From assembly GCA_009602725.1 (NCBI GenBank), contig WELB01000350.1:68032-91390 (forward strand): a DNA stretch of 23,359 bases, read 5' to 3'. Made by a program: the position numbers and the translations under genes. Below are positions 3,001 to 23,359 of the stretch, piece after piece. How positions within the stretch are numbered: the stretch's first letter is position 1; every line of letters starts with the position of its first letter. The notes under the pieces were generated by a model. The model searched no databases, was not told the origin of the DNA, and worked only from the letters and a program-made list of their open reading frames with translations. The stretch is from Spirogloea muscicola. Lineage: Eukaryota > Streptophyta > Zygnematophyceae > Spirogloeales > Spirogloeaceae.

Positions 3001-4693
3001 TCGAGCCGTTTGTGCAGGCGGAGGGCGGGCGCAAGTACGGTGGCACCGGCCTGGGCCTGGCCATCTCCAAGCGCCTCTGCACGCTCATGGGAGGCTCCAT
3101 GGACGTGCACTCGGTGCCTACCGTGGGAACCACCTTCAGGCTGCACCTCTGCCTGGACGTCCCCCCGCCGCTCGGCGAGGCGGAGGAGGCGAAGCCCAGC
3201 GGAGTGCCACCTGGGGTGGAGCACTTGCGAGGCAAGCGGGTGCTGTACGTGGATGCTGGGCTGGTGCGCCAGCAGGTGGTGGGCAGCTACATGGAGCGCC
3301 TGAGTGTCGAGCCCGCCGACGCCAGCAGTGTCGATGACGGCTGCAACATGCTGCAAGCGGCGGCCAAGCCCAAGTCGAAGGCCAGCCTCTCCGACCTGTG
3401 CTCGTACTCGCGGCCCCAGCAACCCTTTGACGCGGTCCTTCTGGCGCTGGATGACACCCTGGCCGACAACCTCGGCGCGCCGCTGCGCCTCCTGCAAGCC
3501 TCCTCGCGGCTCGGGACCAGGGCTCTCCCAGTCCTCCTCCTCCTGCCATCCTCTGCGGCACCGTCCCTGGAGGGTGACGCCCTGGCGGCTGGCTACGCCG
3601 TGGCACTGCGGAAGCCCCTCCGCCAGGTCTGCTCAAGCCTCGTGCCGGCCACCTTCTCGGGCGAGATGCCCCAGCATGCCCCGCCAGAGCGAGGTGGTGA
3701 TGGGGTCATCTGTCTCCTGACAGCGCGGTCGGCATTCGGTGCAGAGCACGCTGGCAGCTTCTCTGGTGACCGCCCTCGGCTTGCAGAAGGTGCCCTCCCC
3801 CAGGCGCGCTGTGGTCCACACGCAGAGCCTGGGAGAGCTGTTCCGTGGGCGTCGCATCCTCATTGGTGAGCAGGCCAGGAGGCGCTGCTTCCCGGGGGCC
3901 TGCAGCCGACCAGCTGATACGCGCCACGCGCCACTAGGCACTGACTTCGACAGCGCCGTACGTGGCTGTGTGCAGTGGACGACAACCTGGTGAACCGCAA
4001 GGTGGCCACAACCTTGCTCACCAAGTTTGGCCCAGTGGTGCAAACCGCCAACAACGGGCGGGAAGCACTGCAGCTGCTCCAACCTGGGCATGCCATCGAC
4101 CTTGTCTTCATGGACATCCAAGTGAGATTGAGGGTGCTGCCTACTTGGGGTGCTGCACACCATGACTGACGGTCGAGCGACAAAGATCGGCTCCGCACTA
4201 CACTCGCAGCTCTTGCAGTCATGGGACTCTGACAAGTCACATTGCATGTCTCCATCAGATGCCCGAGATGAATGGCTACGAGACAACGGAGAGGCTGCGG
4301 GCGATGGAGCTGGAGCACCCCCAGGACCGCCGCGTGCCGGTGTGGGCCATGACCGCCGACGTCCTCAAGGTGCGACTCAGTCAGGGACGGCCTCAAAGAA
4401 GACCCTGAATGAGCCGGATCATCGCTGACATGCACCTGATCAACTGAGACGTCTGCATGCGCCCTCGCAGTTCAAAAGTGCGGCAACTTGTCGCCTTTGT
4501 TGTGCAAGGTGGTGGCATCGACTTCTTTCTCCACCCACAAGCTTATGTACATGGTCTTTGTGTATTTCAGGGGACCAAGGAGCGATGCAAGGAAGTGGGG
4601 ATGGACGGGTACATCTCCAAGCCCATCCAGGCCGAAAAGCTCCACAACATCGTGATGCAGATCTTCGACCAGCAGGACCAGCGGGGCAGATGA
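2..4693 (+). CDS. Cytokinin-receptor-like hybrid histidine kinase, 5' end off the window
   Basis: Membrane sensor kinase of the CRE1/AHK type: an extracytoplasmic CHASE domain senses a ligand (cytokinin in plants) and a His-Asp phosphorelay starts inside the cell. Exons: 2-137, 238-723, 1098-1293, 1544-1718, 1859-2032, 2159-2285, 2641-3626, 3745-3865, 3976-4121, 4259-4369, 4571-4693. All joins are GT-AG and in phase, giving 926 residues plus stop; the true N-terminus lies upstream. In order: CHASE (starts EYAPVLL, later [13 protein letters not shown]), a transmembrane helix at 1125-1190 ([19 protein letters not shown]), HisKA with the phospho-acceptor in [10 protein letters not shown] (about 1560), N box [10 protein letters not shown]1 DTGIGM, F box FEPFVQ, G2 [11 protein letters not shown], a degenerate receiver-like domain, then a receiver with VDDN, acceptor Asp in FMDIQMPEMNG and SKPI lysine. 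The exon 6/7 join is the least certain; it falls in the variable region between N and G1 boxes. Kinase identity is very secure; cytokinin as ligand is inferred. Confidence 0.95.
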
Positions 4694-7700: not shown

Positions 7701-8936
7701 TTGCAGACTTGCACATCAAACTGTTACCAGCCAGAGAAATCCAAATCGGATACAGAAGGATGCAGATACTAATCACCTGTGTCCCATCGAGAGTGACAGC
7801 AGCGGGAGCCTCTATCCGACCACCGAGCTGTGTTTGCCACTGGACTCGTCCGTTGCCGCTTGACTAAGACGGAGTATCTGAGTGAAACATCACGTGTGCA
7901 CTTTGACAAGGAGCCTGGCTCGAGCACTGAAGTGGACCTGGACAGGATACCAGATTGAGCACAAGTGAAGGCAGCAAAGCTTCTTGGCAGAAAGCGTACA
8001 GGGAGCTCACCTGGAAGCACTGGCACACACGAATGTGTGAGCATGGGAGCCTACGAGGATCCTCCAGCCCAGATGATGGTACACGAGCACCGGGGATGCA
8101 TCAATGCACGCACCTAAGAACAACCGCCAGACCACCTTCTCATATTACTCCACACAAGGAGCGGATGTCAGTGGAGGTGGCCACAACCTCCAAGGCCCGA
8201 CAGCTTGAATTGCGGAAACGCCTCATGCACTACCATGCAGTCATTGGTTATTCACATGGTGTGGAATATACCTGGACTTCACCTGGGACAACATCTGAAA
8301 GCGTCAGCTTCAGATCCACATGGGTGTTGTGTTCTCCCATGCCAGGCTGACAAAAGCTTCGGGAAGCTCCAGCACACTACTTAGTGAGGGCTTTGAGGCT
8401 CCCTTCTGAGGCGAAGACGAATCTTGACCTACAATGTCTCCAGGCTGCTGCAAGGCCGGCGCGTCGGGTGGTGCCAGCTGCCAGCTCGACCAGACTGTGG
8501 CATCCTGCGTTACAATGACTGCGAGTTGCGCGTCTGCAGCGATGGCGTGCAGGCGGCCAAGAGGCAAGGCGGGGTCCAGCGGCACAAAGGCGGCACCAAC
8601 TTCCAGAGCAGCCAGCAGCGCGACGAGGTACACTGCGGAGGGCGGCAGGTGCAGGCCGACCAGAGGTGGCAGGGTGCCGGCGCTAGGCTCTGGCGGCAGA
8701 TGGTGGATGAGGAGATGGAGCAGGTGTTGTTGGGCGACCTGCAGCTGCTCAAAGCGCGGGGCAGCAGGCGGCATGGAAGCCCCCAGGTCCTCGAGCACGG
8801 CTGCGCGTGTGGGGATGAGCAGGCAGGCAGCTCGGAAGGCCGCTGCTACGCTCGAGTGGTAGCGGGCGCCCAGCATGAGCGGCAAAGGACGAGGTGTGGA
8901 GCCTTGACCTGCCGCTGGCTGCCCTCCCGCCTCCAT
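4765..8936 (-). CDS. AASDH: AASDH/ACSF4-like protein: partial adenylation domain plus PQQ-like beta-propeller
   Basis: Family knowledge: AASDH (beta-alanine-activating enzyme, U26) joins an AMP-forming adenylation domain, a phosphopantetheine carrier and a C-terminal PQQ-like propeller. Exons, 5' to 3' on the minus strand: 8876 (or 8936) to 8352; 8113 to about 8011 or 8031; 7863-7777; 7583-7497; 7370-7327; 7219-7108; 6886-6827; 6533-6452; 6309-6245; 5968-5909; 5782-5738; 5035-4765. From 7863 to 5738 all phases agree. Diagnostic propeller segments are CIDASPVLV, LVGSHAHTF, WQTQLGGRIEAPA, VVIGCYDGDIYFL, SSHDKHVYVL, CPGSVFASPALDE, LVYVATTSGHVLAL, VVLGAVDGSM, FTAGGPIFAG, SSRDGFVYC and, at the C-terminus, MPGEVFSSPVMLGGHIYVG then CRDDYLYCLEL. 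At least one exon between 5737 and 5036 is unresolved: phase 0 to phase 2, so its length must be 2 mod 3. The adenylation core and carrier are missing, so the locus may be a pseudogene, an internal deletion or a misassembly. Confidence 0.88.
5969..6244 (-). other. GC-AG intron in the AASDH-like gene
   Basis: The exon encoding VLGAVDGSMTG..PLWK ends at 6245 and is followed on the minus strand by GCAAGC, the usual form of a GC donor (AAG/GCAAGC). The acceptor TGCGCAG precedes FTAGGPIFAG at 5968. Phase 0 is kept and the protein matches the family across the join. No usable GT donor lies close by. Confidence 0.7.
8352..8876 (-). other. First exon: N-terminal part of an adenylation (AMP-binding) domain
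   Basis: Translation from ATG 8876 (an in-frame ATG also lies at 8936) gives about 175 residues with the early adenylation-domain landmarks. These are an A1-like FEQLQVAQQHLLHLL stretch and an A2-like ALEVGAAFVPLDPALP, followed by a helix with AVIVTQ. The exon stops at ELPEAF with donor TTT/GTCAGC, just where the P-loop motif A3 (TSGSTGxPK type) should follow. No A3 to A10 motif is found between here and the first propeller exon at 8113. The exon is much more GC-rich than the propeller exons. Confidence 0.8.
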
Positions 8937-9600
8937 GCCAGGGCTTCGCCTCCCACGGTCGACTGGGCCCTCCCGGCTCTCCCTCCCCTTGTCTTCGAGC
9001 TGCGGGCACCAGGCAAGCACCCAGTCGCTACCTGGGGCTCCCAGGTCCTAAAGCCTGGTAGCTGTCTGTGTGCTGCCTCCGTTCATGTGGCTCCACCCCT
9101 CTCTGGCTCTTGCGTTGCACAGCAATTGCCATCTGAGCTTCAGCAGCTGCCTCTGTTGCGAGCAGCGGAATCATGCCAGCTCTTCTCTTGTCCGACTCGT
9201 TGTCTAGCTGACGAGCAGCCCTGACACACCGTGCCTGTCGCCCCTGGAAGTATAGCGGCAGATCAAGCTGTGGTTGCTCCTTGGCGGCCAGCTTCCGCAG
9301 TCGCCGTTGCACTCCTGGGAGCCGGAGAGCCGCTTCGCTCCTCTCTCTGCCGGCTTTCTTCTCGGGCGGTCAGAGCAGTCCCTCGCCAGCCTTGGCCCAT
9401 GCCCGACGAACGACAGACGACGAACAACGAAGCTGCGCGTCTTGCCAGAGGGGCGGGTGCCTGAGAGAGGCCGAGCTCTGAGGGCTGGCGGAAGGCAGGC
9501 GGCAGGCGAGCTTCCTCTCCTGGCAGGGCGCCACGGCCGTGAGCCGCCTGGCCCAGAGGAGCTGGGGCGCAGTGCGGGGCCACACGCTCTCCCCTCGCCC
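8937..9600. other. 5' flank of the AASDH-like gene, no gene supported
   Basis: GC-rich sequence upstream of the AASDH-like start. Open frames on both strands are Arg/Ala/Pro/Gly-rich, with no recognisable motif and no splice-consistent link to the downstream exon. It probably holds the promoter and 5' untranslated region; no element was recognised. Confidence 0.4.
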
Positions 9601-9609
9601 ATCCCCGCT

Positions 9610-9840
9610 TGGCGCCGCTTTGCACAAGGACATGGACCACCCGGCGGCGGTCCAAGCGATTGCTTTGCATCGCCGGGCTGGTGGCGCCCTTGCAGCAGTC
9701 CTCGGGCTTGCGCGGCGGGGTTGCTCTTCCTCCCCTCACCTCATCTGGCTTGTTACTGCTGACACGGGGGTACAGAAAGAAGGTGCTCGCCCATTGAGAA
9801 GAGGGGCTGGCAAAGCCAACCCAAAAAGAATGGACAATGT
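9610..9840. mobile_element. Truncated retrotransposon end (copy a) and an oppositely oriented hairpin tail
   Basis: At about 9640-9775 the plus strand reads AIALHRRAGGALAAVLG and then SSGLLLLTRGY, the C-terminal signature seen in better copies to the right. Directly after it, 9778-9838 is the shared 3' tail in the opposite orientation, with the hairpin at 9804-9822 (GGGCTGGC, AAA loop, GCCAACCC). The join of opposite orientations points to a nested or rearranged insertion. Confidence 0.6.
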
Positions 9841-9915
9841 TCAAAGCCAAAGAAAGAGGTGCTGAAAAAGGACTACACTACAAAGTGCAAGATGGTGCAG
9901 AGGGAGATGTACAGA

Positions 9916-10009
9916 GGGCGCCCTGTCTGCCTAGCCTTTGGCTCCGTCATGAACCCCTGTATGCATCTGGCTGGCAGTTTACAGCCGGTTCTCCAATATC
10001 AGCAGCCGC
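9916..10009 (+). repeat. 94-base repeat B, copy 1
   Basis: This 94-base block recurs at 11253-11346 with about four mismatches by eye. More diverged versions occur at 13658-13731 (plus) and 13235-13322 (minus). One frame reads CLAFGSVMN.CMHLAGSLQP; the minus copy at 13235 reads CLACGSADM..LCMHLAGSL, so the repeat may descend from a zinc-finger-like coding segment of the retrotransposon. It is followed at 10020-10055 by a SSDLLLLTR-type C-terminus (copy b). Confidence 0.75.
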
Positions 10010-10165
10010 ATTATCTTCCTCGCCTCTTCTGACTTGCTACTGCTGACACGGGTAGCGATGTGTGTATTGAGAGATGGGGAGGCCATGTGTGGCCAAGTAC
10101 GAAGGCAAGCACATTGACAAATGCACGTCACCTGCTGCTAAGCCGACCCGCTCAGTCAGCACATA

Positions 10166-10275
10166 GAAAGTGCTCGCCCATTGAGAATAGGGGCTGGAAC
10201 AACCAGCCCGAAAAAGAATGAACAGAGTACGAGAAGGGGGCCAGGGGAAGCGCTAAGAAACAGAAACAAAGCAGC
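10166..10275 (-). mobile_element. Retrotransposon 3' tail with hairpin, minus orientation
   Basis: Read on the minus strand: GTAGCTGCTTTGTTTCTG, then TTAGCGCTTCCCCTGGCCC, the conserved GTTCATTCTTTTTCG block, the hairpin (10191-10209, seven-base stem, five-base loop) and the AATGGGCGAGCACTTTCT end. The same order is found at 14640-14850 (minus), 15500-15640 and 16395-16520 (plus). Confidence 0.7.
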
Positions 10276-10334
10276 TACGCACGTAGAGGTCTGCCTAGCT
10301 AGTGTTGGAGCACATAGAGGTCGCTAACTGATGC

Positions 10335-10900
10335 GGCGGCGGCGGTCCGCGTATCATCGCGGATGTGGTGACCGCCGACTGAGTCGACTCCGCCAACCCC
10401 TCCAAGTCGGCGACGACCGCTGGGCATTCGGTCGCTTTGGCGGCCCGGGGCAAGGAGCGGAAGTATGCCGATCACCCCCCAGGTGATGAGTTCGCGGCCC
10501 TTGCCATAGACGTCCACGGGGCTTACGGCAGCGGCTGGCTGGATCTCCTCCAGCGGCTTGCCCGGCAGGCCATGGAGCGGCGGCCGGGTCCGCCAGGGGG
10601 GCTGCCCGGCTTCAACGCGGCCGGCTCCCTGGCCCAGGTTTTCCGGATGCGGCTCTCCGTGTCCCTTCAACGCTCACTCGCTCATGCCGTCCACTCGCGC
10701 GCGGGCCGTGCTCTTGTTGCTGCTTCCGGGTTCGCCCGGCTGCATCTTTTCCAGCCTCGAGCTACTCTGACCTGATGTTGCTCACCCGCGGGTATTGAAC
10801 TTCGTGTGGTTCCGTCATGTCTAGTTGTCTAGATGCCTAGCTAGTGTTGGAGCTCTTTGGATATTGTCCATTCTTTTTTGGCTGGCTTCTGCCAGCCCCT
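10335..10900 (+). mobile_element. 5'-truncated non-LTR retrotransposon (copy c): RLE-like C-terminus and 3' tail
   Basis: The plus strand encodes PRIIADVVTAD, then AARGKERKYADHPPGDEF, ALAIDVHGAYG, AAGSLAQVFRMRLSVSLQR and finally SYSDLMLLTRGY with stop at 10796-10798. This is the same domain as copies g and h. The coding frame is broken by an in-frame TGA just after DVVTAD and by a frameshift before the C-terminus, so it is dead. The tail carries a hairpin at 10880-10897 (GGCTGGC, TTCT, GCCAGCC). Confidence 0.75.
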
Positions 10901-10929
10901 CTCTTCTATGGGCTTCTGCCAGATGCTCG

Positions 10930-11090
10930 AATACCGGATGGCAATCGACAAGCTCTCGGACTACCAGCCAAGGCTCGACCAGCTTTCTGATGCAACGCAT
11001 GAGCCTGAGCTCGCTGCAGACAAGCTGACACTCGACGTCGCAAATATGACATATAGGCAGCCGGCATACCCATCTGGGCTGGAAGCATAT
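10930..11090 (-). mobile_element. Short retrotransposon C-terminal remnant (copy d)
   Basis: On the minus strand one frame reads YLRRRVSACLQRAQAHALHQ followed by KAGRALAG. This aligns with YRMRLAVSLQRSMARALH in the other copies. A block GCCAGCCCCTCTCTTCTATG is repeated directly at about 10891 and 11104, bracketing the remnant. Confidence 0.55.
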
Positions 11091-11252
11091 CCTCTATCCC
11101 TGCCAGCCCCTCTCTTCTATGAGCGAGCTCATCTTCTTCGATCCTCGCGTCGTGCATATCCCAGACTCGCTATGTTCTCAAGTAGGGTATGGAAGCGAGG
11201 ACCCAAGCAGCCGAAAGTGTCGATTGCGGCCGGGAGAAGGTGGGGGTGTTGA

Positions 11253-11346
11253 GGGCGCCCTGTCTGCCTAGCCTTTGGCTCCGTCATGAACACCTGTATG
11301 CATCTGGCTGGCAGTTTACAGCCGATTCTTCAACATCAGCAGCCGC
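11253..11346 (+). repeat. 94-base repeat B, copy 2, next to the gankyrin-like gene
   Basis: Nearly identical to 9916-10009. It ends 73 bases before the ATG of the ankyrin gene at 11420, so mobile-element sequence probably forms part of that gene's promoter or 5' untranslated region. Confidence 0.75.
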
Positions 11347-11419
11347 TTTCTTGGCGCCCGCCCCCCACCCGCGCCCCTCCGCTCGCCGGGCACCCCCGGC
11401 CCCAAGCCCCCAAGCCGCC

Positions 11420-12787
11420 ATGGGCGCCGACGAGGACGGCTTCTTTGCCGCGGCCGCAGCAGGCGACGAGCACTGCCTGTACAGCCTCCCTCCGGACGCG
11501 CTTGCTCGCCACGCGCGCCGCCGTGACGAGGACGGCCGCACCGGCCTGCACGTCGCTGCTGCAGCCGGCCACGCCAAGGTGAGCGCCGTGCTCGACTGGC
11601 TGCAGCTCCCACGCCCGGCGCGCTGAGCCAGCACTGCTTCCCGCTGCAGGCAGAGTTGCGCCTGGAGCCACCGCTCTGAGGCGCACCTCCAGAGGATCGC
11701 TGCAGTCCGCTGCACCAGCTCTGCCGGAGCCTGAACAGCCACAGGGCTTGTGTGACGCGCAGCGTAGATCGTGGCGCTCCTCGCTGGTGAGGGAGGCAGG
11801 GATGTCGTGGATGCCTGCGACGACGAGGGCTGGACTCCGCTTCACTCGGCCGTGAGCAGCGGGCATTCGCTGGTTGTGCTTTCCCTGCTGGATCATGGGG
11901 CCGATCCCAACAAGGCCAACTCTGGAGGCAGGACGCCTCTTCACTATGCCGCTTCGAAAGGCCACACGCAAATTGCCCAGCTCCTGTGCAAACGGGGTGC
12001 CAACATATCTCCTACAGATAAGGTCCGCAACTGCTGCAGGTCTCCAACTGCGCTTCCTGCTGTACGGGGTGGTTGCTTGCACTTACATGCAGCTGCGCAG
12101 ACTTGCACGGACGTACAAATGGATGGCGCCCTCTTACGGCGTACATATGGTCGTGCAGATCGGTGCCACGGCTCTTCACCGGGCTGCTGGCACGGGGAGG
12201 ACCGAGCTTGTGGAGCTTCTTCTAGAGGATGGAGCCAGTGTGGATGCCAAAGACAGGGCTGGCCAGACTCCTCTCATGTACGCAGTCATCAGCTCCCATG
12301 CCAAGGTAAGCCTCGTACAAGCTAGAATTTCCCCAAAACGAAACCCCTGATGTACGCACTTAGCAGCACTCATGCCATGGTAAGCATACTACATGCTATG
12401 CACACTCCCCAAGTCAAAGTCAAGGCACTGCCACCTCCAGGTCACATAGTCTGGCTCCTGCCGGGGCTTGTATCAACCCGTCATTGTGACGTGACGATTG
12501 CCACGCTTGTGGTTTATAGTGAAAGCAGGAGTCATCATCCTTGTCAGAGAGGTCGCGTGTGGCAACTGTGTGCATGTGGCGACTGTGTCAGACCTCACCT
12601 GCATGGTAGTGCTACCTTGTGCACGTGGCAGGTTGTCGTACAGCTCATGCAGCATGGTGCAGATCCCCACACAATGGATGCTGATGGCAACAGTGCAGTC
12701 AGCCTTGTAACAACCCCCGAAGTGCAGACTGCCTTGCTGGCTCAACTGGAGGCTCTTAGAACAGAGGCCATGGATGCTGACTCATGA
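11420..12787 (+). CDS. Gankyrin/PSMD10-like ankyrin-repeat protein
   Basis: Exons 11420-11578, 11768-12022, 12159-12305 and 12632-12787; every intron is GT-AG and phase 0, giving 238 residues, close to the roughly 226 of animal PSMD10. Ankyrin repeats are clear: DEDGRTGLHVAAAAGHAK, DEGWTPLHSAVSSGHSLVV, SGGRTPLHYAASKGHTQIA, GATALHRAAGTGRTELVELL, AGQTPLMYAVISSHAKVVV, and a last DADGNSAVSLVTTPEVQTAL. The protein is repeats from end to end with short caps, no other domain, and a short acidic C-terminus. In animals and yeast PSMD10/Nas6 is an assembly chaperone of the 19S proteasome cap; that role is inferred here, since other small ankyrin proteins look alike. The start ATG has GCC just before it and lies downstream of a repeat copy. 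The intron before the last exon holds a partial duplicate of exon 3. Confidence 0.85.
12337..12386 (+). repeat. Intronic duplicate of the end of exon 3 with its splice donor
   Basis: The stretch around 12345-12384 (CTGATGTACGCACTTAGCAG, then CACTCATGCCATGGTAAGC) copies the end of exon 3 at 12275-12310 (CTCATGTACGCAGTCATCAG, then CTCCCATGCCAAGGTAAGC). It would read TPLMYALSSTHAM and has its own GTAAGC donor. No good acceptor precedes it, so it is probably a decoy rather than an exon. Confidence 0.75.
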
Positions 12788-13000
12788 CTCAACCGCGACT
12801 TGGTCATTAGGCACGAGCCACCAAGTAGGAGCTCGTGTACAGCTGCTTGCTTCATAGGTGCTTGCGTACACCTGGCACAATCTGCTGCTGCTGCACCATT
12901 ACATGTGCGCTTGAGGAAATGGCATGAGGCTTCAGCCTGAAAGCGGAGCTTTGCCATCACCTGGATGTGAGGATCAAGAGACCAAAGCAATGGGCTTCAG
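12788..13000. other. 3' flank of the ankyrin gene
   Basis: No gene or repeat was recognised between the ankyrin stop codon and the start of the second repeat cluster. Confidence 0.5.
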
Positions 13001-13007
13001 ATGGATT

Positions 13008-13330
13008 TCAACTGGCACACAAGCTGCTCAATCTGTTTCTCAGGTGGGTTGACAAGATGCAGACTGCGAGAAAGAGAGGGGTCAAAGTGAGGGGCAGCCA
13101 GAGCAGGGAGAAATTCATTGACAACCACGGGTCAGCAGATGGAGGTCGCTGATCGATGTCCGAGTGCCGGACGACGGGATCCAAGCCCTTTTGCCACCAG
13201 GGAGGGTGGCGCCCATTCCGTGGGCGACAGGATACGGCTGCTGACGTTAACGAGCCAGCCAGGTGCATACAGAGGGTGTTCATAACCATGTCAGCGGAGC
13301 CACATGCTAGGCAGACATGGCGCTCTAAGT
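13008..13330 (-). mobile_element. Retrotransposon coding remnant with a zinc-finger-like motif (repeat B, copy 4)
   Basis: On the minus strand the frame reads HVCLACGSADM, LCMHLAGSL, then further to KGLDPVVRHSDIDQRPPS. The C-x2-C ... H order resembles the Cys/His cluster that precedes the endonuclease in R2-type elements. Part of it (13235-13322) is a diverged copy of repeat B. The relation is inferred. Confidence 0.45.
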
Positions 13331-13376
13331 AACCCCGTGGCAGCAGTAGAAGAAGTGGCTCTCCTAATGGGGGCAA

Positions 13377-13640
13377 GGGCTGTGAAAAGCCAGCCCGAAA
13401 AGAATTGACAAAGGTTCGAAGGGGCCAGATGACGGAAGGGGCCAAAGCGGCAGCAGTAAGAAGTCAGATTAGCTGAGGGGAGGAAGAGCTGCTGCAAGGG
13501 CGCGACCGGCTCGGCGGCGCGAAGCAAGCGCTTGGGACCGCTGGAGGGACTTGGATAGACGCATGCGGTAGCAGGACACATCCAGGAATAGAATCGAAGG
13601 CACCGAGCCTCCAGGAAGTGCTGCTGCCTTCTTCTTTTCT
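13377..13640 (-). mobile_element. Retrotransposon C-terminal remnant (copy e) with an adjacent hairpin tail
   Basis: On the minus strand the frame ending at 13469 reads YRMRLSKSLQRSQALASRRR then AGRALAAALPPLS, the same module as the other copies. A hairpin tail lies at 13377-13396 (GGGCTG ... CAGCCC) in the same orientation, with the conserved CCATTAGGAG-type end beyond it. Confidence 0.6.
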
Positions 13641-13657
13641 TCCCTTCTGTTCTCTTG

Positions 13658-13731
13658 ACTTGGCTCCGGCATGAACACCTGTATGCATGTGGCTGGCCTT
13701 GTACAGCCGCTCTTTCAACATCAGCAGCCGC
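13658..13731 (+). repeat. Repeat B, copy 3 (diverged)
   Basis: Shares GGCTCCG, CATGAACACCTGTATGCAT, GGCTGGC and CATCAGCAGCCGC with copies 1 and 2 but carries several substitutions. It is followed at 13760-13875 by a tail with GGGCTGGCTTTTCG, the right arm of the hairpin lost, and a degenerate YSD..LLTR C-terminus (copy f). Confidence 0.65.
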
Positions 13732-13924
13732 AATCCCTTCTCTTTTGTTGTCACTTTTGGGCTGGCTTTTCGTCAATGGGCTATCCTCAATGGGCGAGCC
13801 CTTCGGCGGAGTGCCTCCTTCCCTGCAACGAGCTACTCCGACTGATGTTGCTCACTCGTAGGGTACTGAGCTTCCCTAGTGCATTGTCGTGTTTCGTAGT
13901 GTAGTCCTTTCTCTGCACCTCTTT

Positions 13925-14095
13925 CTTAAGAGAAAGCGCGGCCAGATTGACTGGTGGCTGGGAAAGGCCAGCCCAAAAGAATGGACAAGGTCTGAGGGAG
14001 CTTGAGTGCGAACGACTAGGACTAAGACATCAGCCAGGGAACGCTCAGTAACCTCTAGACAGGAGATGCAGATCCGAGTAGCTAGCTGGTGGAAA
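13925..14095 (-). repeat. About 160-base dispersed element H, copy 1
   Basis: On the minus strand it includes AGACCTTGTCCATTCTTTTG, the GGCTGG/CCAGCC hairpin (13956-13973) and CACCAGTCAATCTGGCCGCG. A second copy lies at 14312-14478 in the same orientation, and a third, shorter one is inserted in copy h at about 15908-16004. Confidence 0.75.
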
Positions 14096-14099
14096 GGCT

Positions 14100-14250
14100 T
14101 TGGACATTGTCCATTCTTTTTGGGCTGGCTTTGCTAGCCCTCTTCTCTTCTCCCCCTGGCCCCCTTCTCGTACTCTGTTCATTCTTTTTTGGGCTGGCTT
14201 TTCCAGCCCCTATCGTCAATGGGCGAGCACTTTCTTCTCTATGGGCGAGC
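14100..14250 (+). mobile_element. Two retrotransposon tails with hairpins in tandem
   Basis: Hairpins at 14122-14140 (GGGCTGG, CTTTG..., CTAGCCC, with one G-T wobble pair) and 14191-14209 (GGGCTGG, CTTTT, CCAGCCC). The second is preceded by CTGGCCCCCTTCTCGTACTC and followed by AATGGGCGAGCACTTTCTTC, the standard end. Confidence 0.7.
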
Positions 14251-14311
14251 ACTTCGTTTCTTCTTTCTCATTTCTCTCTTTCGTCCGCGGCACCGCTGGT
14301 CTGCTTGAGAA

Positions 14312-14478
14312 GAAAGAGTAAGCGCGGCCAGATTGACTGGTGGCTGGGAAAGGCCATCCCAAAGGAATGGACAAGGTCTGAAGGAGCCAGAGTGTGAAGG
14401 ACTAGGACTGAGACATCAGCCAGGGAACGCTCAGTAATCTCTAGTCAGGAGATGCAGGTCTGAGTAGCTAGCCGGCGG
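14312..14478 (-). repeat. About 160-base dispersed element H, copy 2
   Basis: Direct repeat of 13925-14095, including the stretch AGACATCAGCCAGGGAACGC and the TAGCTAGC block near its outer end. Its hairpin arm is mutated (GGCCATCCC in place of GGCCAGCCC). Confidence 0.75.
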
Positions 14479-14535
14479 AAAGACATCGCCCTGACGGAAG
14501 CCGGAGGCCGCCGCTGAAGCTTCCAGAGGAAGAAG

Positions 14536-15444
14536 CACTTGCTCGTTGAATATAGGGGCTGGAAAAGCCAGCCCAAAAGTTAAGGAACAAAGTCCGAGAA
14601 GGGGGCCAAGGGGAAGCGCTAGGAAGAAAGTGCTCGCCCATTGAGGATAGGGGCTGGAAAAGCCAGGAAGCCAGGAAGCGGTTCTTGAGAAAGTGCTCGC
14701 CCATTGAGAATACTTCCTTCCAAAGAAGACAGTGCCCGCCCATTGAGAATAGGGGCTGGAAAATCAGCCCGAAAAAGAATGAACAGAGTACGAGAATGGG
14801 GCCAGGGGAAGCGCTAAGAAACAGAAACAAAGCAGCTACGAATCGCTCAGTAACCTCTGCTAAGCAGCCGCAGGTCGGAGATGCTAGGCTCGTTGAAGTG
14901 GGTCCCCTGGCCAGAGCTAGAGGCAGCAGCGAGGGCTCTGCCGGCACGAAGGTGCATCGCCCGGGCCATAGACCTCCTGCAGCGAGACGGCCAGGCGCAT
15001 TCGATACACTTGCGCCAGCGACCCGGCTGCAGGAAAGTCTACCAGCTCCCCATGGAAGCGACGGGCGATGGTGTAGTGGGCGAGCTGGGTGAGCAGCTCG
15101 AGACACCGAGCGCCCAGCGCCCCATGGGTATCAATGGCCAACGGGAAGAACTCGTCTTCCCGCGGATGGTCTGCGTACTTCAGCTCTTTAGCCCGCGCAG
15201 CGCAGGCGACCGCATACCCAGCCTTGGTGGCACATTGAGCTGGGTGTGAGCGGTCGTCGGCATCAGTGGTCACCACGGCCAGGAGAAGACGTGGCCCGCC
15301 GGCCTGTGGGGTGGCCACCAGGTCCACACGCCGGGCGTGGAGACCGTTGGCCCTTTCCTGGCCCCGCGCGCCTTCTCTCCTGGATCGGCATGATGCCGGA
15401 GTGCTCCGCTGCCACGGAGAAGCCAGCCTCCAACAGGATGCCAT
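14536..15444 (-). mobile_element. 5'-truncated non-LTR retrotransposon (copy g), RLE-like domain and tail
   Basis: The minus strand encodes GLHARRVDLVATPQAGGPRL then LLAVVTTDADDRSHP, ARAKELKYADHPREDEFFPL, AIDTHGALG, AAGSLAQVYRMRLAVSLQ, then the 3' tail with hairpins at 14753-14770, 14651-14657 (left arm only) and 14556-14574. Compared with copy h, the second Asp of the VD-x14-D pattern is Ala, and about 20 bases are inserted after MPIQER, shifting the frame. Several tails stacked at 14536-14760 mean more than one copy ended here. Confidence 0.78.
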
Positions 15445-15454
15445 GCATCACATG

Positions 15455-15640
15455 ATGAGCCTAGCATCTCTGATCTGCGGCTGCTTAGCAGGGGTTACTG
15501 AGTCATCCTTAGCTGCTTTGTTTCTTTGTGTGCCTGATTTTCTTAGCGCTTCCCTGGGCCCACTTCTCGTACTCTGTTCATTCTTTTTGGGGCTGGCTTT
15601 TCCAGCCCCTATCCTCAATGGGCGAGCACTTTCTCTTTTT
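15455..15640 (+). mobile_element. Isolated retrotransposon 3' tail, plus orientation
   Basis: Begins AGCATCTCTGATCTGCGGCT (the SISDLRLL C-terminus) and runs through the TTAGCGCTTCCC block to a perfect hairpin at 15590-15608 and the AATGGGCGAGCACTTTCT end. It is the reverse complement of about 14690-14890 with modest divergence. Confidence 0.72.
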
Positions 15641-15647
15641 GAGGGGG

Positions 15648-16530
15648 GAGCTGGCCACTCATGTCCTGCGCTGCGCCCACGGCGGCGAGCGGACAGCGGC
15701 CCGCGACCGCCTCCGCGATGCGATATATGGCGTCCTGGTGGAGGCTGGCTTCTTGGTGGCAGCGGAGCACTCCGGCGTCATGCCGCTCCAGGAGAGGGCC
15801 GACGGTCTCCACGCCCGTCGCGTGGACCTGGTGGCCACCCCACAGGCCGGCCGGCCACGGCTTCTCCTGGACGTGGTGACCACCAACGCATACGACCGCT
15901 CACACCCGTCGTTCGCACTCAGGCTCCCTCAGACTTTGTCCATTCTTTTGGGCTGGCCTTTCCCAGCCACCAGTCAATCTGGCCGCGCTTCCCTTTCAAA
16001 CCCAGCCCAATCCGCCACCGAGGTTGGGTATGCGGTCGCCTGCGCCGCTCGGGCTAAAGAGCTCAAGTACGCCGACCATCCGCGGGAAGGCGAGTTCTTC
16101 CCGTTGGCAATTGACACCCATGGGGCGCCGGGCGCTCGGTGGCTCGAGCTGCTCACCCAGCTCGCCCGCCACACCATCGCCCGTCGCTTCCATGGGGAGC
16201 CGGTGGACTTTCCTGCAGCCGGGTCGCTGGCGCAAGTGTATCGTATGCGCCTGGCCGTCTCGCTGCAGAGGTCTATGGCCCGCGCGCTGCACCCTCGCTG
16301 CTGCCTCTGGCTCTGGCCAGGGGACCCACTTCCAGGAGCCCAGCATCTCTGATCTGCGGCTGCTTAGCAGGGTTACTGAGTGATTCGTAGCTGCTCTGTT
16401 TCGTTGTGTGCTTGTTTATATTAGCGCTTCCCCTGGCCCCCTTCTCGTCCTCTGTTCATTCTTTTTCGGGCTGGCTTTTCCAGCCCCTATCCTCAATGGG
16501 CGAGCACTTTCTTCTCTACGGGCGCCCCGC
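15648..16530 (+). mobile_element. Best-preserved retrotransposon C-terminus (copy h)
   Basis: Plus-strand frame 15528-16352. Motifs: THVLRCAHGGERTAARDRLR (H-x3-C then GG), AAEHSGVMPLQERADGL, HARRVDLVATPQ, RPRLLLDVVTT, KELKYADHP, FFPLAIDTHGAPG, AGSLAQVYRMRLAVSLQR. VD-x14-D followed by K-x3-Y fits the R2-type restriction-like endonuclease (known consensus R/K-PD-x12-14-D); here the Pro is Val. No reverse-transcriptase core is present, so the copy is 5' truncated. It is interrupted by a small element at 15908-16004. The SISDLRLLSR C-terminus and the tail with hairpin 16468-16486 follow. Confidence 0.78.
15908..16004 (+). mobile_element. Small hairpin element inserted inside copy h
   Basis: Copy g reads DRSHPAQCATKAGYAV where copy h has about 97 extra bases between DRSHP and PAQSATEVGYAV. 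The insert matches element H at 13925-14005 read on the minus strand (TCGTTCGCACTC, CCATTCTTTTGGGCTGGCC, CAATCTGGCCGCGCTT). ACCC-like sequence flanks both sides, possibly a short target-site duplication. The insert happens to keep the frame open. Confidence 0.72.
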
Positions 16531-16539
16531 GCGCCTTCT

Positions 16540-16950
16540 CTCTACGGGCAGACGCGGCGAGCCAGCCGACTTCAACGCCGCGGGCTCGTGGGCTCAGGTA
16601 TATCGGATGCGCCTCTCTGTATCCCTGCAGCGGTCCATGGCCCACGCTCTGCATCTGCGAGCTGGCCGTGCTCTCGCTGCGGGCTCTGGCTTTCGTCAGG
16701 GTGATAGCTTCCCGGCAGCTAGTCTGTCGGATCTGAGGCTCCTCACTCGTACTTATTGAGTGATCCATCCTCCCCCTGTTTTACCATTGCATCCTCAGGC
16801 CCCTTTGTAGCTGCTCACCGCTCTTAGGCCCCTCTGAGCCTTTGTGAATTCTTTTTGGGCTGGCTTTTCGCAGCCCTTGCAGTTCTTTGTTCATTCTTTG
16901 TTGCCCCCATTGGGAGTGCCACTTCTTCTTCTACGGGCGAGCACTTGTTC
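16540..16950 (+). mobile_element. 5'-truncated retrotransposon end (copy j)
   Basis: Encodes DFNAAGSWAQVYRMRLSVSL, QRSMAHALHLRAGRALAAGS and a complete C-terminus SLSDLRLLTRTY with stop at 16757-16759. The tail carries GAATTCTTTTTGGGCTG and a weaker hairpin at 16857-16876, then CTACGGGCGAGCACTTG. It shares AAGCGCGGGC-type C-terminal features with copy c rather than with copies g and h. Confidence 0.7.
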
Positions 16951-17112
16951 GCTTGAGAGGCCGGCAGCACAAGTGGGGCGAACCACCGACCCCCGTAACA
17001 CCCGTGGAGCGCAGGACGGCGCAGGGCGGGGGGCCGCGAGCCCAGGCCTTCGTCAAGGCCCCGGGAGCCCGAAGGCGGGCGAGCCGATCCCCGGCCCCAA
17101 CCGCCCCCCCCT

Positions 17113-17127
17113 NTGCTCTTCCGATCT
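17113..17127 (+). other. Illumina adapter remnant next to an ambiguous base
   Basis: After a run of C the sequence has N at 17113 and then TGCTCTTCCGATCT at 17114-17127. These are the last 14 bases of the TruSeq index-side adapter, in which the base before them is G. Such a string is not expected in an algal gene; it marks an assembly join or an untrimmed read. Confidence 0.9.
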
Positions 17128-17216
17128 CCCCTCCCCGGGCGCCATGCTCGCTGCGCCGCCCCCCGCGCCTCCCTGATCTCCGCTGTGCCCGCAATGCGGC
17201 CGCGGCCCCCCTGAGC

Positions 17217-20200
17217 ATGGTGAAGCCTCCGGCCGCCAAGCCCGCCGGCAGCCTCCTCCGCGCCGCCGCCGCCCTCTTGCAGCGCATCCGCGCCATGGGC
17301 AGCCCGCCCGCAGAGGCCGGGTCCACCTACAGCCCCCTCGTCGCCTTCATGTGCGCCCTCCGCCTTCCCCCGCTGATCTCGCCCCTCACCTGCCACGACG
17401 GCCTGATCGGCCATGCCTGAGCTCCAGCGCTGCCGTACCGCTGCACTCCGTGGGCCCCGTGCGCCAACTTCTCCGGTGACAGTCAGCTCGTCCGGCGCGT
17501 CCGCAGATACGTCTTCAACCTCGTCGTCGGCACGGGCGTGCTAGCACTTCCTGCTGTGCTCACAACGGGCGGCTGGGTGAGCCTTTCCCCGCCGTTCCCT
17601 AGGCAGCCGTTGCTCTGCCCGCCCATTCTCTGCCTGGCAGCGCGCCCAACGGCCGGACGAGACAGTGCAGTCTGACCTCGGCCCTGGAACTCAGACTGGA
17701 AAACTTGCTGCCGGCGTCGCTCGCTTCCGAACCTCCAAGCCCAGCATTGCCGGCAGACCAATGAGCATGTCAGCTTTCCTTGCGCTGCCTGCAGGTCCTG
17801 GGGGGCCTCTTCCTCTTCCTGGTCGCTTCCTTGAGGTACGATGGCATTGTGATGCCGTAGGGCAGCACACTGCACCGAGATGCCGCAGCCAGCCTTGAGA
17901 CTGAGTCATTGCTGGACATTCCAGGGGCCGGACTCTACTGTGTTTGCCACTGCCCTGACATCACTGAAGCATACCTCTGCAGCTATGTAGGTGTCACCTT
18001 CATGATAGAGAGCATGGCAGCAGCAAATGCACTCCTATACTACGAGAAGAAGGTTCGCAACCTTGCCAGAAACCTCCTCTGCAGCTTCATGTTCATGGTT
18101 GCCGAATGCCTCTGCACTCGCTTGCAAATGCACAGTCAGCAAGGCTGGCCTGTCTAGCAGCGAGTGGCAGGGTACTGCATTTTTGTACACTCCGATAAGC
18201 CTGTTGCTGAAAATCTCTTGCAGACATCACAGTCTGTGCACGACTCCGAGTCAACCGAGCTGCTGGATTCGGCAGAGAAGGACCGGTCACCATTTGAGAT
18301 TGTCCGGCGAACAGAGCTGGGGCAGATGGCTGTAGGTTCTTCGTCCTTGTTTTTTCGCATTGCACAACGGCGTTTGCTGCTGCCTGCGCATGGTTGTGCT
18401 TTGTGAGGTCGTGATGCACCCTTCAATCAAACACAAGAAATTGTGGACAAGCATGGTTTAACTTTTGGGGCTCATTTGTGTGCTACTCCCACGAGTCTCA
18501 ATCATAAGCACGTCAAAGCTAGTGATTTTTCATGTCGTGCCCCTGTGTAAAGATGGAGGGGTCCTGCAAGATTAGATGTACATCTGAGTAGTCAACAAGC
18601 GTGTGCCTTGTGTTTGTCAGGAGATGTTCTTCAACAGGACCGGAAGGGTGCTCTTCTACGTTGCCTTGATTGTCAGTCCCCATGCCTTCTTAACCACATG
18701 AGGCATGCACAGCAAGTCACAAGGCTCCTTGTCACATGACATTCTTGCCCAGCCCACAAACCAGCCCTGTAATCTGGGGAGACATCTCGAAAAGGAGTGG
18801 CTGATGGTGGGCTAGGGCCACAGCTGATAAGCACACTCGATCACACCTGTTGACTGGAGCTACAGCTGCCGATATGGAGCCTGCTGATTTTCTGGACACC
18901 CAATCTCAACTGCTTTTGACCAAATCGTAGAATGCATCAAGCAACCCCTTGTGAGCTTGTGCAGCTATACTTATTCGGGGATGCAGCAATCTATTGCACG
19001 TTCGTACCACGTTCAATGGTGGGTTTCATGTATGGGGATCATGCTCCTCCTTGGGCCTTCAATATGTTTCTTGCCCTTTTCATCGTCCTTATTGTGCCTT
19101 TCTGGTGAGCCCTGCCACCTGCAAATGCTAGGTCAAGTCAGCAGGATCCCAGTCAGTGGCATCAGTGCAGCCAGGAGCCTTGCTGAGAGGTCATGCCATG
19201 CTTAAGAGATGCCTTTTCACCACTACCACCACAAGGTTGTGAGGTCCATTTGGTCTAGGTCTCCCCATGCAAGGGCATCTCTCGCTGAGTCACTTATCAG
19301 GTACAGTTGTACACAGACCCTGGAATACTGTGGGGTTCTAAAGTAGATGTGGGCTAGCCTACAAGGCAGCCACTTTGTTCATGTCCAGCAGACCTTAGCA
19401 AGGCAAGAAGATCGCACAACCAGAGCAATGAATTTTGATTGTTTGTCCTTACCTGCAGTTTCTTTGACTTTCAGAAGACTAAGCTACTCCAGATGGCCAC
19501 AATGGTACGCTTGCTACACGTGCTAAGTGTGTTGATGCTGGTTGCTTGCCGGTACGATTGGCAGCCTGTGCATATTCCTTGCCAGTGCCTCACGGACAGT
19601 ATTGAGGGGCTGCTGTCGCCTGTAACGTGTAGGGCATGTATTGTACATCCCCCTAATCAACTTGCACATCCCCCCATTCAAATCCATGATTGCTGTGTGT
19701 TGCTTTTCAGGCAATCAGGAACGCCTCCCTCTTGACGTGAGTCAGACGCTCATGCAGTTCCTCTTGCGTAGCTCGAGCAAGCTAGCTCCTGTTACGCATT
19801 TGTCACCAGCTACACTTGGGCAATGGCCACTACTCACTTCATCAATGGTCTCTTAGTACCCAAACAAGTGCTGTTAATAAATGGAATCATGATAACCCGC
19901 CAGGTTCCACGGGTTGAACCAATCACCCTTGGCAGCTTCGGTGGCAGCTTCCTTGGCAGCATCAGGTTGCTTCTTGCAGTGCACCCACCATCTTGCTGCT
20001 CCGACCTTTCTGAACAATCCTCATTGTCTTGCAGCATCATTGTGCTAGCCTCAGCATCTGCCCTGAGGACGGGGGGAAAGGTGAAAGAAGTCCCACTTTT
20101 TGAACTCAGGTGCTGCTCATCTCAGCTTGTCCAACCAGCTTGTGGCCTATCGAGGCTCCTCTTCTCCGTGTGATAGCTGCTCTATGTCGTCGTCCTGCTC

Positions 20201-22441
20201 TCTTATGCGGCACAACTTCCCATGTTCATACAGAGAGCTGCCGAATCTATTTGGTGGCGCAGTGTATGCCTTCATGTGCCACCACAGGTGCAAAGTGGCA
20301 GCTACTCGTAGTGATGCATCATCTCCGGAATGGTGTTGGAAGTGGGACTTATTTTCACCATCAAGCTCTTGTACCTTAGCTGCTGAGGGAGGACATTGTT
20401 GAGTCTCTCTCATGCACTGTGCATGTTGGAAGGATGGCGTTTGAGACCGGTGACTGTCATGTTGCAGCCTGCCTGGCATCATAACACCCATGCAGGACAA
20501 GGAACTTGTGACCAGAGTCATAGGTCTTGCCTTTATTGGGATCTTCTCGCTGTACATCCTCCTATTTGTGTCGTGCGGCATAGCATTTGGTATGTTATCA
20601 TTCCTCCATTTCAGCTTGAGTCGGGGATTTGCAAGGTTTTGATGTCCTGTCGTGCTTAGGCAGATACTGGATTCTCCTCTGCTTTGGCATGCGCCACTGT
20701 GGGAGTCGTAAGCACCAACATGGGTGGTGCAGACAGCTAACGTGTATACTGCACAGGTCTTCATGCTGAGGATCCCATCACATTCAACTTCCCAGCTGCA
20801 GATATCCAAATGATGCCTGCACTCCAAAACCCTTTTGCCCTGCTTCACTCTTGCCCGTGTGAGGATGCTTGACCACAATGGATAGACCCTACTGTGTCCT
20901 ACTCGTTGCTGCATGAGCTACAAGAGTAGTGCGTTCGCATAGTAAAGGATGTGAGTCTGTATGAAAGCTACATAGACGGGGGGGGGGGGTGGAGGGGGAG
21001 CTTCCTTGACCTGGCTCACACTATGGATGGGTTGGAGATGCTTTGCTTCTTTTCCCAGGTATTGCCAAATGCCAGAGCAAACATCATGTGCAGTAAATCC
21101 AATTCATAGGAGTCTTGGTTGCCAAGTATTACCTCACACTTGCCTTGCACAGCTGTTACGATTGACACCTGTCCAAGCCGCCACAAGTATGCTAGAAAGG
21201 GCTACCTAGCGACACGAACTGTGCCTTGTCTGACCATTGACTGTGGACTTCAAGGTTCGCAATTCCATGCAGTATTTACGCTGTCGTCGAGCTTCCCAAT
21301 GCTTTCGATTACCCTGCGGAACAATCTCGACACACTCCTCCACCTCATTCTTCCCCCAAAAGGTCTACTCTCAACCGTACTCCAGTCCCCTGTTGTGCTC
21401 CTGTCAGACCTGCCGGTGAATATCTGTAATTTCTTCACCAAACGCTGAAGATATCAATATCCCATGACAAGGAGCCAATAAGCTAAGAAATATTGCACAA
21501 TGCAGAGTCCAAGGCCCGCCTGAAGGATGATCTGGAGACTGTTGCTATCATTGATCCACGGTACCTGGACAAGGCAGCACTGCGTAGAATTGGTGTAACG
21601 CTGCTTGCCGTTGGGCCCCCTATAGCTTGTTGCCTTGCTGCCGAGGTAAGGACTACCGCGACTGAACCCGATTGGATAACGACCTCAAATACCTTGCATG
21701 CGTGCCTCGCTGAAAGCCTCACAAAACGAATGTCAGAGTCCTTCTCAAGCTCACCCAGGTCTAGTACTCAGAGGACAAGCATCATCACTAGTGTCATGCA
21801 TGCTGGAGAGATGGATGTAAGCAGGAGCCACTTCTAACCAGCAAGTGAAATCAGAGACGAAGTTCAGCAAGATGACCTCGTACTATTTTGCTGTGAATGT
21901 CCTGTATGTCAAGCATTTTGGCTTGAATGTAAATTCATTGGTGGGGATTACGGGCGCATATGCTGGCGCCGCTGTCATGTTTATCATACCTGCTTGCCTT
22001 GTCCATTGCTCAAGGATGTACGTGTCCAACCTTAATGGGCTTTACCTATCTGTACACTCTATGTTTTGTGTACTGGTTGAACCAGTCGTCTGCTTTACCA
22101 CGATGGGCTATTTCCTGCTTATGTGCTGCTCCCTGCCAGCTTGTCTCTTGAATGCTGCTGCAATTGCATCACATCGCAATGACTGACGATTGATGTCAAG
22201 GGGGCAGCCTCTCACACGACGTGCCTGTCAATTGTGCAGGACGGTTGCCCAAGACTTTAGGGGCAGAGAACCAATACATGAAAGTGGCTCAGCACATCCG
22301 CCACTCTATTTAGCGCACAATCCCCACCCTTCAAATATTCATGCTAGCCCATTTAGAGGGCGGACTTGGGTATGTCTCTTGGTTATCATGGCTGTATTAG
22401 CCATGCTATTTAATACCTATGAGAAGGGCATCACAGGCTAG
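17217..22441 (+). CDS. TMEM104-like multi-pass membrane protein (amino-acid permease superfamily)
   Basis: Exons: 17217-17350, 17507-17576, 17795-17835, 17983-18052, 18224-18331, 18621-18671, 18965-19104, 19459-19540, 19711-19736, 20234-20287, 20468-20589, 20757 to about 20864, about 21038-21058, 21273-21362, 21506-21645, 21914-22017, 22240-22441. All joins are in phase; only the 20864/21038 join is doubtful, as its acceptor lacks a pyrimidine tract. Family hallmarks: IYVFNLVVGTGVLALPA in helix 1, FMIESMAAANA, PFEIVRRTELGQMA, LYLFGDAAIY, CFFDFQKTKLLQMAT, LFGGAVYAFMCHHS, LPGIITPMQDKELVTR, FTLSSSFPMLSITLRNNL, NSLVGITGAYAG, then SPFRGRTWVCLLVIMAVLA at the C-terminus. The predicted length near 490-500 residues fits TMEM104 (about 496 in human). 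Substrate unknown; relatives of the SLC32/36/38 fold carry amino acids. TGTAA, the usual chlorophyte polyadenylation signal, occurs at 22528-22532. The ATG at 17217 is the first in frame after the adapter remnant; residues before TYSPLVAF are not supported by similarity. Confidence 0.9.
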
Positions 22442-22895
22442 CATCGATCACTCTCTCTTGAGTAACACAGCCTGGTGACACATTGTCACTTCGGCTTTGG
22501 AGGAGCAAAAACTTCACATTATGTGTATGTAAGGATCCAATGCAAAATTGTGCATAGCAGGGTCCTTTGCATGCCACTGCTTTAGGGCATTGTCAGTGCC
22601 AGAAATCTAGCAAACCTTATGACAGATTCACAAGCACTAGGTCTATGTAAGGACTCACAGGACTGCCAGGCGCCCGACAACCATCAGAGCTGACACTGAA
22701 TCTATGGATTAGAATTGAGGTTGAAGGATTGAGAGTTTAGATTCTGGGTCCCAGGTTCCTCTTACAAGGTTCGTTTCAAGGAAAAGGGAACGGGTCAGGA
22801 GAACTCGGTGTGGGAATCATGGTTATGAGATCCAAATAAGGTCAGGTTAAAGAATCGATTTTAGGGTTAAGGGTTCGTTGAATATTGTAAAATGT
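22442..22895. other. AT-richer 3' flank with degenerate telomere-like heptamers
   Basis: No gene is seen. TTTAGGG at 22860-22866 is followed directly by TTAAGGG, and several GGTT/GGATT-rich strings precede it from about 22715. This looks like decayed telomere-type sequence. Confidence 0.5.
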
Positions 22896-22943
22896 TAAAT
22901 CGGCGGGTCGGGGTGGATGACCATCCCGCACGTCTCATTGGGC
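22896..22943 (+). repeat. 48-base repeat T, copy 1
   Basis: Identical over 48 bases to 23312-23359. It contains a short palindrome (GGATG, AC, CATCC). Downstream of this copy the sequence goes on into CCTTAGAGTCTCC. Confidence 0.95.
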
Positions 22944-23123: not shown

Positions 23124-23336
23124 GCACATCTGCATCTGAGCCGCTGCGACGAGGTCGCTCTGCTGGGCCGCCGCCTCAACGAGGTCGATCTGCTGGACCT
23201 GGAGGACGTCCAATGGAGGAACATGACTGGAGGAATCCAGAACATTCTCAGGGACAGGTACAGGAGCAGGCACAAGAGCACACAGCCCAGGAACATTTTC
23301 ACCCTAAACCCTAAATCGGCGGGTCGGGGTGGATGA
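23124..23336 (+). other. Possible exon or ORF of unknown function
   Basis: A plus-strand open frame without an early ATG reads CDEVALLGRRLNEVDLLDLE, then DVQWRNMTGGIQNIL and a basic stretch, ending inside repeat T. A 30-base imperfect tandem (ACGAGGTCGCTCTGCTGG at 23149 and ACGAGGTCGATCTGCTGG at 23179) underlies the Leu-rich part. A different plus frame opens with ATG at 23120, and a minus frame is strongly hydrophobic. Which, if any, is coding cannot be decided; no family was recognised. Confidence 0.2.
23302..23315 (+). repeat. Two CCCTAAA telomere-type heptamers
   Basis: CCCTAAACCCTAAA, the complement of the plant/green-algal TTTAGGG heptamer, runs directly into the second copy of repeat T, sharing its first four bases. 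The orientation is opposite to the TTTAGGG at 22860. Confidence 0.85.
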
Positions 23337-23359
23337 CCATCCCGCACGTCTCATTGGGC
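23312..23359 (+). repeat. 48-base repeat T, copy 2, at the window edge
   Basis: Exact copy of 22896-22943 that ends at the last base of the window. The start-to-start distance is 416 bases. If this is also the contig end, the assembly stopped inside a multi-copy repeat. Confidence 0.95.

Follow-up and report, generated by a model that had tools for sequence, protein, structure and literature searches.

Remnants of sequencing adapters are a familiar contaminant. Moeller et al. (2024, PMC11536531) describe adapters that concentrate at the contig ends of published assemblies, with reverse complements at contig beginnings, and note that adapter contamination can inhibit the merging of contigs; the kind of artefact considered here is, on that source, already known. 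The window, by which we mean the whole stretch of 23,359 bases of Spirogloea muscicola DNA that was analysed, shares with those cases a TruSeq remnant at a presumed contig end, present as the reverse complement at the contig beginning, at position 17114. It differs in that its contig end lies inside a scaffold and is accompanied by one N, whereas the paper covers the contig ends of microbial assemblies. The word "scaffold" was not found in its main text, and among the matches listed by a literature search a description of the single-N form inside scaffolds was not found.

Joins of the same form occur in two public assemblies, those of Mesorhizobium sp. LSHC420B00 and LNHC252B00. In these, as in the window, the inside of a scaffold holds one N that directly abuts a truncated index-side adapter, and the orientation is the same. 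Below we compare the window with these bacterial joins, and with the placement of adapter words in public contigs generally, and ask what the N and the remnant say about the DNA on either side.

The adapter remnant and its identity

The letters of 17100-17143 are ACCGCCCCCCCCTNTGCTCTTCCGATCTCCCCTCCCCGGGCGCC. Position 17113 is N, the sole non-ACGT letter across the window, and positions 17114-17127 on the + strand read TGCTCTTCCGATCT, which agrees at 14 of 14 positions with the last 14 bases, at the 3' end, of the TruSeq adapter on the index side (Read 2). The T at 17114 fits the index side and tells it apart from the universal side and from the old paired-end adapter, both of which agree with the window over the next 13 bases only. 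A text search of a literature collection listed 1,399 papers in which the string is printed. The remnant ends in GATCT, which abuts genomic sequence, as at an insert boundary, and the N sits on its 5' side, that is, the adapter points inward from the presumed contig end. TGCTCTTCCGATCT is the reverse complement of AGATCGGAAGAGCA, the first 14 adapter bases entered by Read 1 when the insert is shorter than the read. The sequence-only reading had recognized an adapter in the assembly, made up of the N and the index-side end of TruSeq, and on this point it was correct.

Under a first-order Markov model, 2.4e-4 exact copies of the 14-mer are expected in the window on both strands, and 6.1e-9 at the single + strand site directly to the right of the N. 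The 13-mer GCTCTTCCGATCT with two mismatches has a mean of 0.59 copies in shuffled sequence, and at least one copy in 48 of 100 shuffles. Because two-mismatch versions are so common by chance, the weight rests only on the exact match beside the N. Eighteen adapter and linker words were scanned; three of them match at the site (the two TruSeq sides and the paired-end adapter), and the longest match of any other, taken as the longest per word and strand, is 12 bases. In our judgement common adapter words are few, so the post hoc choice of word does not rescue chance.

Adapter words in public contigs

Where does this word occur elsewhere? A scan of the viral_contigs collection with the 14-mer found at least 120 loci, holding 124 matches. 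Among the matches listed, 118 of 124 lie within 300 bases of the 5'-side contig end and 107 within 100 bases of it, fourteen of them being flush with the contig end; a single match lies within 300 bases of the 3'-side end. Two control words behave otherwise (at least 120 loci for the first; distances measured in contig coordinates): among the matches listed, the first has 3 of its 120 and the second 2 of its 77 within 300 bases of the 5'-side end, where a limit of 100 bases leaves 0 and 1; near the 3'-side end, again within 300 bases, the counts are 3 and 4. None of the 124 listed adapter matches has an N within 20 bases upstream, nor do the 120 loci hold any N, so this collection supports the contig end, not the N. 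The right-flank contig of the window, sought in the same collection with one 20-mer, gave 0 matches.

The genome_contigs collection was scanned with a 17-mer, which found at least 120 loci and 123 matches. Of the matches listed, 116 of 123 are within 300 bases of the 5'-side end and seven are internal. Two of the seven internal copies listed have a single N exactly at the adapter start; the other five have no N within 80 bases upstream. Of the two copies with an N, L383 comes from Mesorhizobium sp. LNHC252B00 and lies 392 bases from its scaffold end; L429 comes from Mesorhizobium sp. LSHC420B00 and lies far inside a scaffold.

Proposed origin of the site

Positions 17113-17127 are almost certainly an assembly artefact, in which read-through adapter on the left end of the right-hand contig would have been scaffolded with one N. 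The site is very probably a hidden contig join, the N at 17113 being the join mark and the remnant at 17114-17127 (+ strand) the left end of a contig that starts with adapter read-through; its orientation and its position at a contig end are those of the public copies. Within the window the single N is the only sign of a contig boundary at the adapter, and 28 of 30 analogous places in Mesorhizobium have such an N. The adapter has no biological function, and is an ordinary artefact rather than a real feature.

The letters, the single N and the orientation are read directly from the window, and the same architecture is present in other public assemblies. The read-through and the scaffolding would have proceeded as follows. 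A library fragment shorter than the read length would have allowed a read, running leftward on the - strand, to pass the genomic insert and enter the 3' adapter. The first 14 adapter bases, untrimmed, would have been kept on the left end of the contig that bears the TMEM104-like gene, and the scaffolder would then have set that contig beside one ending at 17112, writing one N because it found no end-to-end overlap. SSPACE may write a single N for a negative gap; a source for this scaffolder rule was sought in the literature, and was not found in the passages searched. Two points run against the comparison. The window remnant, at 14 bases, is shorter than all 28 N-flush Mesorhizobium remnants, yet the flush copies among the listed viral matches are also 14-mers. 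The N beside an adapter is matched only by the two Mesorhizobium assemblies.

A variant of this history would have the adapter brought in not by contig assembly but during gap filling, by a program that lengthened the edge of the contig from untrimmed reads. One such program, GapFiller, uses k-mers from reads to extend the edges of contigs (PMC3446322), and edge extension of that type could leave the same N and adapter. The sequence itself does not separate gap filling from assembly read-through. Contigs without any N already carry adapters at their ends, however, and we consider the gap-filling route rather unlikely.

Single-N joins in Mesorhizobium

The 14-mer is present in 32 copies in LSHC420B00 (G001) and in 36 copies in LNHC252B00 (G002), and the reversed word is present in neither. 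For these 68 copies 30 loci were fetched, 15 per genome, which yielded 30 unique places; some loci hold two places, and two places each occur in two loci. At 28 of the 30, one N is flush with a remnant of 19-28 bases. Of the remaining two, L464 is a contig start, and L466 has the adapter in full length and lacks an N within 40 bases. Two joins, L455 and L465, contribute both of their sides to the 28, four places in all; in each of them adapter flanks one N on both sides. No run of N in these loci is longer than one base; 30 such runs were counted, with overlapping loci taken in. The remnants at L383 and L429 are 17 and 24 bases long.

When L383 and L429 are added to the 28, there are 30 N-marked places, of which 11 have an exact duplicate of 44-107 bases that ends at the N and restarts after the adapter (L439, L441, L442, L444, L446, L447, L456, L458, L459, L460 and L463); the other 19 have none. 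Such duplicates are what the joining of overlapping contigs leaves when an adapter tail hides the overlap. For three of the eleven, those at L439, L441 and L447, a comparison with relatives showed a single copy in the latter, so these repeats are false tandem repeats made by assembly. The Mesorhizobium cases thus differ from the window in being bacterial, in the number of 14-mer copies, in the longer remnants, and in the duplicates at about a third of the places.

Are the flanks of such joins true neighbours? For L429, 20 relatives were compared, and in 19 both flanks fall in one match across the join; the other has a short partial match. The closest relative, G019 (92%), exceeds the 621-base query by 10 bases over this stretch, which means that at L429 some 35 true bases were replaced by the N and 24 adapter bases. 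The N and adapter at this place, at 1675-1699 of the locus, break a GTP cyclohydrolase I gene of LSHC420B00 (Pfam E 4.1e-60 for the part to the right of the adapter).

Eight further joins were searched in five relatives; they were chosen in the order of the list among the + strand places of the LSHC420B00 genome that have a single adapter. In G019 the flanks of L439, L441 and L447 overlap by about 71-84 bases, the exact duplicates being 75 bases each, and 121 bases are missing at L443. L445, L451 and L453 are each crossed by one G019 match, with length differences of +27, -16 and -6, to which other indels may contribute. For L439, L445, L447, L451 and L453 the two flanks are adjacent in each of the other four relatives as well. 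L443 has them adjacent in three of these, G005 giving no match, and L441 in one, with G003, G005 and G022 giving no match or only a stray one. At L461 the join is uncovered in all five relatives searched. By these alignments, eight of the nine joins connect true neighbours, the largest loss being about 121 bases and the largest duplication about 84, and none of the nine was shown to be false; the sample comes from one genome and one pipeline, other than the window's, and leaves out L383.

The flanks of the join in the window

To the left of the adapter, the region 9734-16891 is dense in short direct and inverted repeats, such as the 273-nt arms at 14977-15249 and 15996-16268, which are 93% complementary. 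The sequence-only reading saw retrotransposon debris here. Dispersed repeats are indeed present, but six reading frames of the repeat region held no Pfam domain, including reverse transcriptase, endonuclease and integrase, although decayed copies could escape such a search. The repeats listed, which include 25 of 41 inverted pairs, reach 16891 (D7), near a break in composition at 16955.

That break is the strongest in 16600-17500 when the adapter is left out (log-likelihood gain 28.4, against 10.8 at 17128), and it lies about 158 bases to the left of the adapter. The stretch from 16955 to 17112, at the right end of the left-hand contig, is GC-rich and T-poor (T 0.05), as is the right side to 17216 (T 0.13), which includes the C-rich leader of 17128-17216 (+ strand) between the adapter and the predicted start codon. 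A Pfam search of 16955-17112 in two of the six frames found no match. This stretch probably belongs to the leader or promoter region of the gene. The earlier proposal that the flanks change character at the adapter is therefore not borne out, as the main break is elsewhere and the GC-rich, T-poor leader spans the site. A weaker difference does remain, in that base shares differ across the adapter (permutation p 0.003 and 0.004 for two spans, uncorrected). That difference is evidence against a seamless leader, and is compatible as well with the joining of two GC-rich pieces that are unrelated.

Closeness of a repeat to a gene start is not peculiar to the adapter site, since the same order is seen at a predicted ankyrin-type gene in the window, where 70 bases of C-rich leader separate a repeat copy ending at 11349 from an ATG at 11420. 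Ankyrin domains lie at 11768-12325 (Ank E 7.6e-21), and the ATG at 11420 would belong to this ankyrin-repeat gene.

The window's join was also searched for a concealed end-to-end duplication of the kind that 11 of the 30 Mesorhizobium places have, and none was found: no duplicated contig ends are present, so the window does not offer that internal proof of a join; the longest shared word is 9 bases, and the local score of the flank ends is 21, where shuffles give a mean of 17.8 and a maximum of 27. A short loss is therefore likelier than a duplication, and by analogy with the Mesorhizobium joins the two contigs of the window are probably true neighbours with tens of bases lost.

The contrary case is a chimeric join, in which the right-hand contig would have been linked to a contig with repeats that does not belong there, so that the true upstream DNA and the promoter lie at another locus. 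Contig ends near dispersed repeats are a usual place for mis-scaffolding, and the contig end here is close to such repeats; the weak composition difference across the adapter also points this way. Between 16955 and the N, however, are 158 GC-rich bases without a listed repeat, with 25 of the 41 inverted pairs listed, as would be expected of the gene's own leader. The ankyrin-type gene has its repeat next to its leader as well, and the comparable Mesorhizobium joins, though of another genome and pipeline, connect true neighbours at eight places of nine, the ninth being uninformative. On the change point, the ankyrin-type gene as a control, and the Mesorhizobium joins, we rate a chimeric neighbourhood as less likely, and indeed improbable. 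The suggestion that the neighbourhood is artificial and the promoter elsewhere thus finds no support, insofar as the Mesorhizobium joins are a guide. A further reading takes the 14-mer as part of the genome itself and the N as a base call that has nothing to do with it. The abundance of two-mismatch 13-mers by chance speaks for this, but a chance match is rejected when the exact-14-mer expectation is set against that two-mismatch background, and the listed public copies lie nearly all at contig ends in the same orientation, unlike the control words, so that this reading is improbable in the extreme.

The TMEM104-like gene and other features of the window

The adapter was said to lie just upstream of the first exon of a TMEM104-like gene, and it does: the start codon predicted at 17217 comes 90 bases after the adapter. 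The first coding exon predicted for this TMEM104-like (Aa_trans) gene is 17217-17350 on the + strand, with a GT donor at 17351 and an alternative ATG at 17295. GT-AG splicing of exons 1-4 (17217-17350, 17507-17576, 17795-17835 and 17983-18052) gives an open frame of 105 aa, which is only part of the gene. The spliced exons match Aa_trans with E 1.9e-5 and 23.9 bits, slightly below the cut-off of 25.6, compared with a best Aa_trans E of 0.089 among eight single frames, and a PDB sequence search with them gave no match. The name TMEM104 rests on a putative similarity of pieces such as SLVGITGAYAG. Human TMEM104 is reported to have moderate similarity to Aa_trans (PMC9333335). The predicted start codon, splice sites and coding bases are all untouched by the adapter. 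The predicted coding sequence is intact, and doubt is limited to a short piece of the 5' leader or promoter.

Elsewhere in the window, HisKA and HATPase_c domains at 1284-1829 and 2571-3869 (+ strand) are probably those of one histidine kinase gene with introns, and a fragment of an AMP-binding enzyme lies at 8310-9047 on the - strand (E 2.5e-10). There are two C or G homopolymer runs of at least 9 bases, at 219-230 and 20978-20989. Searches for tRNAs and for Rfam families gave no hit anywhere in the window. The last 48 bases (23312-23359) are an exact copy of 22896-22943, 416 bases upstream; CCCTAAA heptamers are at 23302 and 23309, and TTTAGGG is at 22860. The 3' end of the window may mark the stopping of the assembly on entry to the second repeat copy.

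Implications

What follows for the use of such sequence? An analysis of promoter, 5' leader or spacing across 17112-17128 would take laboratory DNA for genome, and the 15 bases should therefore be masked. The remnant contains GCTCTTC, the SapI/BspQI recognition word, and it would give a false label in an in-silico optical map.

We give even chances to a broader proposition, that a single N directly abutting a truncated adapter serves generally as a sign of hidden joins within deposited scaffolds and can be found by machine; in such joins the adapter tail would spoil the end overlap, so that the join would silently duplicate or drop tens of true bases, sometimes in genes, as in the GTP cyclohydrolase I gene of LSHC420B00. 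A lone N beside an adapter remnant can reveal a join that the scaffold hides, and in the calibrated cases the pieces so joined are real neighbours, with tens of bases duplicated or missing between them.
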